Virus record (IMG/VR): IMGVR_UViG_3300048925_000226
Location: 1 to 28,733 of that record
From: a virus
Reading direction: 5' to 3' (one strand)
DNA length: 28,733 nucleotides
The position numbers and the translations under genes were made by a program. The notes under the pieces were generated by a model. It was given only the letters and a program-made list of their open reading frames with translations. It was not told the origin of the DNA and did not search any database. The stretch's first letter is position 1; each line of letters opens with the position of its first letter. Shown piece after piece: positions 2,995-8,965 of this stretch.

Positions 2995-3257
2995 TTATGC
3001 CGCGCGCGCCTGGCGTTCTTCGGCGCGCCAAGGGCCGTTGGCCCTGGCCAGGGCCGCCATCGGCGGCGGGCTGACGCTGCACCGGCACCGCCACGACCAC
3101 AGAATAAGTCGACAACGATCTCATCGTCCTGAGGGTTGAAGCCGAGTCCGTATTGGGTTTTGAAATCGAAGGGGGGTTCTTCTGTTGTGCGGACATAAGG
3201 GATCCTCGCCGACTGGCGTGATTGCTCAATTTGGTTTATTTGTGTTCTGCCCGGCAT
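2995..3257 (-). pseudogene. Remnant of a cytosine-C5 DNA methyltransferase (internal deletion)
   Basis: The 5' part encodes RIPYVRTTEEPPFDFKTQYG and then DDEIVVDLFCGRGGAG. DLFCGxGG is the SAM-binding motif I of C5 methyltransferases. After about residue 58 the frame loses all similarity. In another frame on the same strand, from 3078 down to the stop at 2995-2997, the DNA encodes SVSPPPMAALARAN and then GPWRAEERQARAA. This resembles the conserved GNSVxPPxAxALxxAN end of the same enzyme family. The simplest reading is a deletion that removed the catalytic PCQ/ENV motifs and most of the recognition region, joining both ends out of frame near 3079-3090. No good ribosome site precedes the ATG, whose position lies inside the leader hairpin of the neighbouring plus-strand gene, so expression may also be lost. 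Confidence 0.75.
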
Positions 3258-3272
3258 ATCGCCGGAAAGGAG
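3213..3272 (+). promoter_or_regulatory. Leader cassette A upstream of a small gene
   Basis: CTGGCGTGATT begins exactly 66 bp before the ATG of the next gene. A hairpin CCGGC-ATATC-GCCGG at 3251-3265 follows, then AAGGAG at 3267-3272. The same order, sequence blocks and 66-bp distance recur before the gene starting at 3653. The stretch between 11-mer and hairpin is AT-rich and may hold a promoter, but no clear sigma-70 pair was found. Confidence 0.55.
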
Positions 3273-3278
3273 ATGGTG

Positions 3279-3512
3279 ATGGCGACAAATCGGGAAGGTG
3301 CGCTGGAGATTGCGCTTATTGGTGTTCTTGCGGCTGCCGATCAGCAGGGACTTGAACTGAAAGGTCTTGCGGTGCGTGCGAAAGATTTGATCTCGCTATA
3401 TCCGAGTGAGTCCTTAAATGGCGACGAACGCGCGGCCGGTGCTGTTCATGAGATCGACAAGGCACATACCAAGGTTGCCGAGGGGAAACGGTTGTCTGGT
3501 ATCTCCGAGTAA
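3279..3512 (+). CDS. Small conserved-looking protein, function unknown
   Basis: A 77-residue soluble protein starting MATNREGALEIALIGVLAA. I chose the ATG six bases after AAGGAG; another ATG two codons earlier touches that ribosome site. The N-terminal half looks helical and moderately hydrophobic; the C-terminal half is polar (GDERAAGAVHEIDKAHTKVA). No family was recognised. It points opposite to the leftward early transcript and is preceded by leader cassette A, so it probably has its own control, shared with the next small gene. Confidence 0.65.
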   Translation: MATNREGALEIALIGVLAAADQQGLELKGLAVRAKDLISLYPSESLNGDERAAGAVHEIDKAHTKVAEGKRLSGISE

Positions 3513-3586
3513 ACAGATCAAGCTGCCTGACTTTACTGCTTGGGCAGCCACTCCGAAAAACCAACCTTTGGCGCCTACCTCACAGG

Positions 3587-3646
3587 CTGGCGTGATTCGT
3601 TGATATGGGGTACTACGGGTGACCGGCATGGAGCCGGATAAAGGAG
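3587..3646 (+). promoter_or_regulatory. Leader cassette B upstream of a small gene
   Basis: This is the second copy of the leader layout: CTGGCGTGATT at 3587-3597, hairpin CCGGC-ATGGA-GCCGG at 3623-3637, then AAGGAG at 3641-3646. The 11-mer again starts 66 bp before the ATG. The DNA between the blocks differs from copy A, so the shared parts are probably under selection and not just a recent duplication. Confidence 0.55.
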
Positions 3647-3652
3647 CTGAAA

Positions 3653-3868
3653 ATGGCACACATGGTTGATTCGTTACTGAAAGTAGCCGCAGCAGGAGGC
3701 AGCTTGGTAATCGGTGAGGGCTACATGGTCGACAGCGTGGTCAAGATCGCACAAGCCATGAAGGGGAATGGCGGTCATTTGACCATCAAAAGTCAAAAGT
3801 ACATGGTGGACAGCATGATCAAAATTTGCCGATCAGCCCCAGGTCAGGTGACATTCGATCTTTCTTGA
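3653..3868 (+). CDS. Small protein of three MVDS repeats
   Basis: A 71-residue protein built from three imperfect repeats at about residues 4-23, 25-49 and 51-71. Each starts MVDS, continues as a short helix (LLKVAAA, VVKIAQAM, MIKICRSA) and ends in Gly plus a strand (GGSLVI, GGHLTI, GQVTF). This helix-strand periodicity suggests a tiny solenoid, similar to repeat proteins I recall from phages and plasmids with a DxLxxIAxxGxGxxxF pattern. No catalytic residues are apparent, so a binding role is more likely than enzymatic activity. AAGGAG lies six bases before the ATG, after leader cassette B. Function unknown. Confidence 0.7.
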   Translation: MAHMVDSLLKVAAAGGSLVIGEGYMVDSVVKIAQAMKGNGGHLTIKSQKYMVDSMIKICRSAPGQVTFDLS

Positions 3869-3884: not shown

Positions 3885-4193
3885 CTAAGGCTCTATACCT
3901 GTCTTAGCAAACTTTTCAAGTTGTCGCGACTGCTTTTCGGTTACTTCGAAAACCGGTCGCGACATGCTGACAAAGCGGGCGGATTCTTCGGCTGGTGCTG
4001 TTGCCAGGTTGATCAGGAGCGTCGAGAGTGTTTCCTGCCACTCCTCAAAGTCGTGGCGTTCGCCCAGAACTTGAAGGGCATCATCGAGCGCTTTCGAGAC
4101 ACTCAGCGTTCGCTTCTCGGCGCCGATCCGTTCGAGCAGCGCCTTCTCTTTCGCGCGCTTGTCCCGCTGGATCTGCGCGTTGTCCTTGGCCAT
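3885..4193 (-). CDS. Charged helical phage protein, function unknown
   Basis: A 102-residue protein beginning MAKDNAQIQRDKRAKEKALL, with a basic, coiled-coil-like N-terminus, followed by KRTLSVSKALDDALQVLG and a helical C-terminal half. The LSVSKALDDAL segment resembles the first helix region of small DNA-binding proteins, but no known family can be assigned. AGAGG lies six bases before the ATG. It is the second gene of the leftward early transcript. Confidence 0.7.
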   Translation of the reverse strand: MAKDNAQIQRDKRAKEKALLERIGAEKRTLSVSKALDDALQVLGERHDFEEWQETLSTLLINLATAPAEESARFVSMSRPVFEVTEKQSRQLEKFAKTGIEP

Positions 4194-4328
4194 GGCCTAC
4201 CTCTTCGATTCCACTTGCCTGGATAGCCAACCATGTCGGCCGGCGCCGCGCGGCGGTGATCTTGCTGATGCGACTCATGGAGTGTCAGCGAACTTGAGGT
4301 CGTTCTCTTGTGCGATCAATGGTGCACA

Positions 4329-4577
4329 CTAGGATGCTGCTTCGAACTGCATTGCGAGGTCGTGAGCAGCCTTATAGGCCTGGCGGAAGGCGCGAGTCTT
4401 GCCAGTGGTGAGGTCAACGATCTGGAACATGCCGACGCTTTCGCCTGTTACCTGGTAGCGCACCGGTTTTTTCGGCATGGGTCGATCAGTGCGACTGAAG
4501 AACGCGGCTCGCGCGGCGTTGGTTTGTTGCAGCAGCACACCGAGTTCGTCGATGCGTTCTTGAAATGATGGATGCAT
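4329..4577 (-). CDS. First gene of the leftward early transcript, function unknown
   Basis: An 82-residue protein with an N-terminal helix (FQERIDELGVLLQQTNAARA), a basic middle (RPMPKKPVRYQVTG) and a C-terminal part YKAAHDLAMQFEAAS. I do not recognise a family. GAGGG is placed seven bases before the ATG. The gene follows a leader of roughly 600 bases containing boxA-type and terminator elements, so its expression probably depends on antitermination. Confidence 0.7.
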   Translation of the reverse strand: MHPSFQERIDELGVLLQQTNAARAAFFSRTDRPMPKKPVRYQVTGESVGMFQIVDLTTGKTRAFRQAYKAAHDLAMQFEAAS

Positions 4578-7806: not shown

Positions 7807-8622
7807 TCAAAGTTTTCGAGCATTCCAGACCAACAAAACCTTGGCATGGATAGTTACGTCGTCGACGTGAGCCTCCAAATCTTTGTTGCTCTTGTTGTCT
7901 GAAATCAGCCAGAAGTGCTCTGCGTCCTTCATCTGCAATCTCTTGATGTAAAGCAATTCATGCCAGGTGACGACGTACACACCTTCTCCTACAAACTCGG
8001 TAACGCCCCGATCAACGATCACAGGATCCTTGTCGTTGATTGTGCCTTCCATGCTTTGACCCCAGCCGGTGATCATCGCCAAAGCAGAAGAAGAGGTGTA
8101 GGTGACGCCTTTCTCGCGCAGCACTTCCTCGCGAACTACCAAGTTGCGGATCGCCTCGTTGTAGTCATCGGGTAGCTGGCCGTGACCCATGGCGCCGCGA
8201 ACGTCGTACTGAGGAATCAGGATTTCGTCGGGTTTGGCGCGCAGACCTGAAAAGTCGACTGAAACGACGTTACTGGCCCCCGCGTCAGTGGCTTCGGCAA
8301 CGGCGAGAAGCTCACTCCGCGCGCTTTCTGGAAGGCGGTTGCCGAGCTTGGAGAGCATCAGGCGCGCAGCATCTGCGGCTGTGCTAACTCGCAACGCAGC
8401 ATTTTTGCCATCGGCCGGCAGGGAGGGGGTGATCAGAGAGCCAGACGGCAGGCCTATTTTCTCCTCTAGGTTTTTCGCCGCCTTGTCACCCAGCCCTCTA
8501 TGCCCATTCAAAATCTGGGAAAGGTAAGAAGCGTCAAGGTTGTGACGGTCTGCGAATTCTTTTTGCGAGGCGCCGGCCATGATCGCCCGCAAAGCCTCGA
8601 CTCTGAGTTTGTTGATATCCAT
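7807..8622 (-). CDS. CI-like prophage repressor (HTH plus S24 peptidase domain)
   Basis: A 271-residue lysogeny repressor. The N-terminus has a helix-turn-helix (ASQKEFADRHNLDASYLSQI, about 18-37, then LNGHRGLG). The C-terminal half is a LexA/S24 domain with Ser190 in GWGQSMEGTIND and Lys227 in LLYIKRLQ, the catalytic pair at the same 37-residue spacing as in LexA. No Ala-Gly or Cys-Gly pair lies near residue 155 where LexA-type cleavage would be expected; A114-G115 is in the linker. I chose the inner ATG because the longer frame begins with TTG inside the operator. It should bind the TTAGCAAA-type operators at both cI-cro and pL. Confidence 0.9.
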   Translation of the reverse strand: MDINKLRVEALRAIMAGASQKEFADRHNLDASYLSQILNGHRGLGDKAAKNLEEKIGLPSGSLITPSLPADGKNAALRVSTAADAARLMLSKLGNRLPESARSELLAVAEATDAGASNVVSVDFSGLRAKPDEILIPQYDVRGAMGHGQLPDDYNEAIRNLVVREEVLREKGVTYTSSSALAMITGWGQSMEGTINDKDPVIVDRGVTEFVGEGVYVVTWHELLYIKRLQMKDAEHFWLISDNKSNKDLEAHVDDVTIHAKVLLVWNARKL

Positions 8623-8642
8623 TTCTGAATCATCGCTTCCAG

Positions 8643-8699
8643 TTAGCAAACAGTAAATTACGGATTGCTATTGCCTGTAGCATTAGCAAACGCTAATCT
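8643..8699 (+). promoter_or_regulatory. cI-cro operator region and rightward promoter pR
   Basis: Operators TTAGCAAACAGTAA (8643-8656) and TTAGCAAACGCTAA (8683-8696) lie between the divergent repressor and Cro-like genes, centres 40 bp apart. TTGCCT (8671-8676), 17 bp and TAATCT (8694-8699) form a weak sigma-70-like pR. The last TAA of the right operator is the start of its -10 box, exactly as at pL. The left operator lies 20 bp before the cI ATG and could control cI itself. Confidence 0.75.
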
Positions 8700-8722
8700 T
8701 GTGATTGTTAAAGGAGGTGCAT

Positions 8723-8965
8723 ATGAACCTGCACGAATTTCTGAAGCCGTTCGAAAACGAGGCCTTGCTGGCATTCGCAACGGCTTGCGATACCAGCCCA
8801 GGCCAACTCAAGCAGGTTGCATACGGCAATCGCCGGCCAAGCGCATCCCTCGCAATCAACATTGAGCGGGAGAGTCAGGGCCAGGTCACCTGCGAACAAC
8901 TGCGCCCAGACATTGATTGGGCTTATGTGCGTGGCACTAAGCAGCAGGCCGTAGAAGCAGCCTGA
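8723..8965 (+). CDS. Cro-like regulator (YdaS/Cro type)
   Basis: An 80-residue protein with one helix-turn-helix, beginning MNLHEFLKPFENEALLAFA. The recognition part SPGQLKQVAYGNRRPSASLA is followed by the closing region ITCEQLRPD-like sequence VTCEQLRPDIDW. This layout is typical of YdaS/Cro-type phage regulators that compete with CI. AAGGAGGT precedes the ATG with optimal spacing. It is the first gene of the rightward early operon, behind pR. Confidence 0.85.
   Translation: MNLHEFLKPFENEALLAFATACDTSPGQLKQVAYGNRRPSASLAINIERESQGQVTCEQLRPDIDWAYVRGTKQQAVEAA

Follow-up and report, generated by a model that had tools for sequence, protein, structure and literature searches.

Short sequences repeated directly upstream of genes have been described in cluster K mycobacteriophages, whose SAS and ESAS leaders are the closest known kind to the cassette analyzed in this study. 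SAS are 13-bp sequences (GGGATAGGAGCCC) located within 3–9 bp of start codons, and ESAS consist of inverted repeats, imperfect and 17 bp long, that flank a variable spacer, with putative promoter boxes 17–18 bp apart (PMC3203893, PMC11373665). Pairing of the ESAS inverted repeats as RNA is unsupported (PMC3203893), and the role of SAS and ESAS has been described as unclear (PMC3203893, PMC11373665). Phage morons are recognized as non-core, GC-deviant genes that possess their own sigma-70 promoter and rho-independent terminator and provide a fitness advantage to the host (PMC5567305).

We analyzed a window of 28,733 nt, which is the whole stretch of DNA shown (virus record IMGVR_UViG_3300048925_000226, positions 1 to 28,733, one strand). 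An earlier note on this DNA had reported an 11-mer at the same distance of 66 bp before the start codons of two small genes, followed in both cases by a hairpin and AAGGAG. A search of the whole window bore this out exactly. The 11-mer CTGGCGTGATT occurs only twice, each time 66 bp upstream of an ATG (3279 and 3653), and CCGGC-N5-GCCGG also has exactly two occurrences, one after each 11-mer (Table 1). AAGGAG begins 1 bp past the hairpin in copy 1 and 3 bp past it in copy 2, and the distance from the 11-mer to the hairpin end is 53 bp and 51 bp, respectively. These are two subtypes of one family: the DNA between the shared blocks, which the note had called unrelated, is so only within the window, as 53-type and 51-type copies are joined by many intermediate copies found elsewhere; among relatives, this intervening part is conserved. 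The region around copy 2 (3571–3639) shares 91–93% identity with phages UFJF_PfDIW6 and phiAH14a.

Table 1 Features of the two cassette copies and their neighbors in the window.
Feature	Position	Strand	Basis
C5-methyltransferase remnant, leftward neighbor of copy 1	2998..3203	-	tblastn against 682-aa relative
Cassette copy 1 (53-type)	3202..3275	+	R1 match, E 3.3e-19; copy in training set
11-mer CTGGCGTGATT, copy 1	3213..3223	+	sequence
Putative -35 element TGGCGT, copy 1	3214..3219	+	17-bp spacing to TATT among relatives
Putative -10 element TATTTG, copy 1	3237..3242	+	sequence; TATT conserved among relatives
Hairpin CCGGC-ATATC-GCCGG, predicted mRNA 5' end	3251..3265	+	covariation and G-U asymmetry in relatives
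Shine-Dalgarno AAGGAG, gene 1	3267..3272	+	sequence
Gene 1, 77 aa, phrog_31739-like	3279..3512	+	family of 15 cassette-led genes
Cassette copy 2 (51-type)	3576..3647	+	R1 match, E 5.7e-24; copy in training set
11-mer CTGGCGTGATT, copy 2	3587..3597	+	sequence
Putative -35 element TGGCGT, copy 2	3588..3593	+	same spacing basis as copy 1
Putative -10 element TACTAC, copy 2	3611..3616	+	sequence; TATTAC in relatives
Hairpin CCGGC-ATGGA-GCCGG	3623..3637	+	sequence; stem changes among relatives
Shine-Dalgarno AAGGAG, gene 2	3641..3646	+	sequence
Gene 2, 71 aa, phrog_27431-like, three internal repeats	3653..3868	+	family of 8 cassette-led genes

The window gene products had no Pfam match. The repeats in the product of gene 2 are about 22 residues long and contain MVDS (MVDSLLKVA, YMVDSVVKIA and YMVDSMIKI), each with a strand-like segment after it. 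In the leftward neighbor of copy 1, residues 9–33 of the 682-aa relative (96% identity) directly adjoin residues 653–682 (83% identity). Judged by this alignment, it is a C5-methyltransferase gene after a large internal deletion, with its middle missing and its start out of frame; the start itself was retained 16 bp left of the 11-mer of copy 1. The statement in the earlier note that the two small genes oppose a leftward transcript applies to the neighbors at 237–2314 and 3885–4577, but not to a 173-aa gene of the same region (2411–2932, + strand), which runs rightward. No cassette was seen upstream of the latter, which may be another cargo gene; its product shows weak, below-cutoff similarity to the Pfam models MtlR, HEPN_RiboL-PSP, and AbiU2. 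Elsewhere in the window, TTAGCAAAC occurs twice in 8640–8700, between a repressor-like gene (7807–8622) and a divergent gene at 8723, and these are probably repressor operators. A tRNA gene at 19–106, at the left window end beside the integrase, is a likely attachment site.

Cassette copies were gathered by pattern searches. All counts refer to the matches listed, and because these copies are related to each other, the counts overstate their independence. A search for the 11-mer followed by the hairpin with an open gap of 20–50 bp yielded at least 119 virus stretches, and nearly all of those listed had a distance of 51 or 53 bp. This excludes chance and refutes the possibility that the arrangement exists nowhere else. 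Most of the 118 stretches listed by a scan without the 11-mer requirement came from Pseudomonas, and a second large subtype, TGGTGGCAATTTGGTTTGGGTTGGGGTATTACGGGTGACCGGCATGGAGCCGGATCAAGGAG, became apparent among them. A covariance model of the cassette (R1), whose training set included both window copies, matched 51 of 119 Pseudomonas genomes (E 1e-4), many of them several times, and none of 184 genomes of other members of the class (E 1e-5); the sole matching genome in the class sample was the Pseudomonas genome used as its center. The cassette is also present in many Pseudomonas chromosomes, and in one prophage region seven matches lie inside 6 kb, all in the same direction. More distant copies were found in the P. 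aeruginosa phages H66, PP9W, Atpa001, and D14H. In the F116-like phages H66 (L245:2455-2528), PP9W (L248) and Atpa001 (L250), the divergent copy has a methyltransferase-type gene on one side and, on the other, a rightward open frame, which is unannotated in H66 and Atpa001. Altogether, the cassette of approximately 70 bp is common to hundreds of Pseudomonas prophages and stands before more than 100 unrelated genes, in agreement with the earlier proposal of a device under selection, in which a promoter or activator site is combined with a hairpin of the mRNA at its ribosome site. In the openly readable part of the literature on phage regulatory sequences, promoters, morons, and SAS/ESAS, we found no earlier description of this cassette.

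On the + strand, the cassette has a constant order of elements: TGGCNN, a 17-bp spacer, TATTNN, 12–14 bp, CCGGC-N5-GCCGG, a Shine-Dalgarno sequence and a start codon. Its anatomy was assessed in 121 copies selected by GGGGTATT and the hairpin, which left the upstream part unconstrained. In 98 of these copies, TGGC preceded TATT by exactly 17 bp, and in none by 15, 16 or 18 bp, whereas the distance from TATT to the hairpin varied from 12 to 18 bp. Such a strict 17-bp spacing of the two conserved boxes, combined with a variable distance downstream of them, is as expected of the -35 and -10 elements of a promoter. We infer that the cassette is a rightward promoter (-35 TGGCNN, -10 TATTNN). The 11-mer probably overlaps the -35 position, with the TATT box 23 bp downstream as the -10 element, so that of the two roles offered for it in the earlier note the promoter is retained and a separate activator site is probably not. 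The hexamers are far from consensus, TGGCGT and TGGCAA being poor sigma-70 -35 elements, and a sigma-70 consensus scan gave no promoter match; hence, transcription may require an activator or a different sigma factor. A sigma-54 promoter was rejected because the required GG-N10-GC is absent from the sequence. Four half-cassettes (L238:3797+, L206:3011+, L128:1511+, and L039:2055+) have kept the promoter part, but from TATT to the start codon their leader is unrelated.

The hairpin was analyzed in a second set of 249 copies, which were picked by the promoter half alone and thus left the hairpin unconstrained. It was present in 193 copies and missing from 56. After re-registering, and read on the rightward RNA, 37 single stem changes produced G-U pairs and 11 produced A-C (p = 2e-4), and compensatory changes on both sides were seen in five pairs. 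This bias and the compensatory changes support a hairpin formed in the rightward RNA, although part of the G-U excess could be due to mutation bias. Strictly non-homologous leaders that lack the standard hairpin showed no significant structure (mean z = −0.27, p = 0.08), which, together with its absence from 56 of 249 copies, indicates that the hairpin is usual yet dispensable. An intrinsic terminator was dismissed, as the stem is followed by ATCAAGGAG or similar instead of a T run. A known RNA family was likewise ruled out: apart from tRNAs, no Rfam family reached the gathering score in the window and eight relatives.

Genes were called with a simple home-made caller combined with start-codon searches. 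A start codon with a Shine-Dalgarno sequence and an open frame was located within 45 nt downstream of 438 of the 522 copies (84%), compared to 43 of 522 random positions. In about 10% of copies, the stop codon of a leftward gene lies after the hairpin and there is no rightward start. Among the copies gathered, the downstream proteins formed 138 unrelated clusters with a median length of 89 aa. The GC content of these cargo genes was 7.4 points below that of the locus, whereas other genes deviated by +1.8 points (p = 1e-32). Terminators followed 25% of the cargo genes and 16% of the controls, which is no significant enrichment (p = 0.08). Most cargo families have no known function, and one matches a head-morphogenesis PHROG; PHROG and PADLOC names are used here as similarity labels rather than as functional tests. 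Two cassette-led genes matched phage-defence models, namely PD-T7-5 (L082:6414-7475, - strand; E 2e-116) and TIR-TM (L497:6887-7693, + strand; E 3e-58), and further matches were to PDC-S31 (L062, L117), AbiP/putAbiC (L484), NYN, PD-T7-4, and HEPN families. Thus, by sequence similarity, a few cargo families are known or candidate phage-defence genes. When 132 downstream representatives were compared with 124 length-matched other phage genes, the controls also matched PADLOC (10 families, mostly weakly), and about 7 proteins versus 3 controls had matches at E below 1e-6, so an enrichment of defence genes was not demonstrated.

The left side of the cassette is diverse as well. The leftward gene starts 17 nt from TGGC in 121 of 251 copies and at 32–36 nt in most others, and the left neighbors belong to 42–47 unrelated leftward families, including methyltransferases and phosphoadenylylsulfate-reductase-like proteins (names from sequence motifs only). 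The 255 copies with both neighbors combine 47 left and 109 right families into 226 distinct pairings; the largest right family, with 19 members, has 16 different left partners. The two flanks thus appear to be swapped almost freely, and the cassette looks like a gene-swapping hub.

We propose, with a probability of roughly 0.7, that in temperate phages of Pseudomonas the cassette serves as a portable unit of promoter and leader, which drives cargo genes and also acts as a gene-swapping hub. TGGCNN, the 17-bp spacer and TATTNN would direct rightward transcription with a predicted start at the foot of the hairpin (near 3249–3251 and 3621–3623 in the window). From this start, the mRNA would open with the hairpin and continue through the Shine-Dalgarno sequence to the start codon, and the hairpin would most likely protect the 5' end and keep the ribosome site accessible. 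The genes driven in this manner would be small GC-poor morons, antisense within a leftward operon between the integrase and recombination genes. As the same ~70 bp separate divergent genes in many phages, homologous recombination there could exchange either flank.

Other readings of the conserved hairpin were considered. The palindrome CCGGC-N5-GCCGG might be a DNA operator, to which a dimeric repressor binds and thereby controls all cassette genes together. It is conserved and directly beside the putative promoter, and for the inverted repeats of the similar cluster K ESAS a role as DNA sites was judged more likely (PMC3203893). However, a G-U bias of the stem on one strand only (37:11) is unexpected for a DNA palindrome, the stem sits between the predicted start site and the ribosome site, and AT at the beginning of the loop is conserved despite lying outside the palindrome; we therefore regard an operator as unlikely. 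Translational control by host Rsm proteins (CsrA family) would instead use a double site formed by a loop CAUGGA and a CAAGGA at the Shine-Dalgarno sequence, and is slightly less probable still. Typical Rsm targets carry GGA in the loops of short hairpins (PMC7937890), and CANGGA does occur in the commonest loop (ATGGA) and in the leader ATCAAGGAG. Yet just 92 of the 193 hairpins in the unbiased set have GGA in the loop, ATGGG being nearly as frequent as ATGGA, and with the loop motif in only half of the copies this candidate was set aside.

The cassette could also act on the leftward transcript, either as a leader of the leftward genes or as an antitermination element of the nut or put kind, with the rightward genes being incidental. 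The fixed positions of leftward starts (16–17 or 31–36 nt left of the cassette) across 42 unrelated families would fit this, as would the boxB-like size of the hairpin with its 5-bp stem and 5-nt loop, but the G-U asymmetry favors the rightward strand, a rightward start follows 84% of copies, regions contain several copies, and no leftward -10/-35 elements were found by eye, which makes this reading quite improbable. Least probable by far is a short non-autonomous mobile element inserting upstream of genes: it would explain many copies with unrelated neighbors on both sides, but hardly their fixed register between divergent start codons or their restriction to Pseudomonas, and an unsystematic look revealed neither terminal repeats nor target duplications.

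A wider picture is conceivable, which we put forward tentatively and consider somewhat more likely to be wrong than right. Pseudomonas temperate phages may share one co-regulated cargo pool of interchangeable accessory genes, which are marked by the cassette, comprise many uncharacterized superinfection or defence factors and are exchanged through homologous recombination within the cassette; such a pool might resemble a gene-cassette system without an integrase. Regardless of this suggestion, a single signature of ~70 bp marks more than 100 families of mostly uncharacterized prophage cargo genes in a well-studied genus, and searching sequences for it could suffice to find such genes, candidate phage-defence genes among them. 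Published genomes, for example of F116-like P. aeruginosa phages, carry several copies without annotation of the leader. The cassette also offers a testable account of shared control over unrelated genes and of phage mosaicism at a defined point.

Among known elements, the boxB of the lambda nut site is a 15-nt hairpin with a 5-bp stem and a 5-nt loop in an early phage region. The cassette hairpin has the same stem and loop size, but it occurs in many copies, lies directly at ribosome sites and on the strand opposite to the leftward operon, and no boxA-like partner was noticed beside it. The cargo genes resemble morons in being non-core (138 unrelated, mostly uncharacterized families), in deviating in GC content (−7.4 points versus +1.8) and in lying within a phage operon behind a putative promoter of their own, here a fixed 17-bp -35/-10-like pair with no match to the sigma-70 consensus (criteria as in PMC5567305). 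They differ in that a terminator is usually not evident after them, and morons are defined singly, whereas here one putative promoter-leader serves more than 100 unrelated families. Like SAS and ESAS, the cassette is a short sequence found many times per phage directly before the starts of unrelated non-structural genes, of which it precedes 138 families, and it likewise combines a ribosome site with an inverted repeat; the -35/-10-like boxes of ESAS have a counterpart in its 17-bp-spaced pair. However, the sequences are unrelated and the hosts distant. The SAS 13-mer GGGATAGGAGCCC is absent from the aligned cassette copies, where the leader reads GCCGGATCAAGGAG, and in place of a 17-bp inverted repeat of the ESAS type there is a 5-bp stem with a 5-nt loop. 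This stem, unlike the ESAS repeats, shows RNA-type changes, and the cassette separates divergent genes with shuffled flanks. By sequence and repeat architecture, the cassette is therefore not a member of SAS/ESAS, but it would be their functional parallel if our reading of it as a promoter is right.
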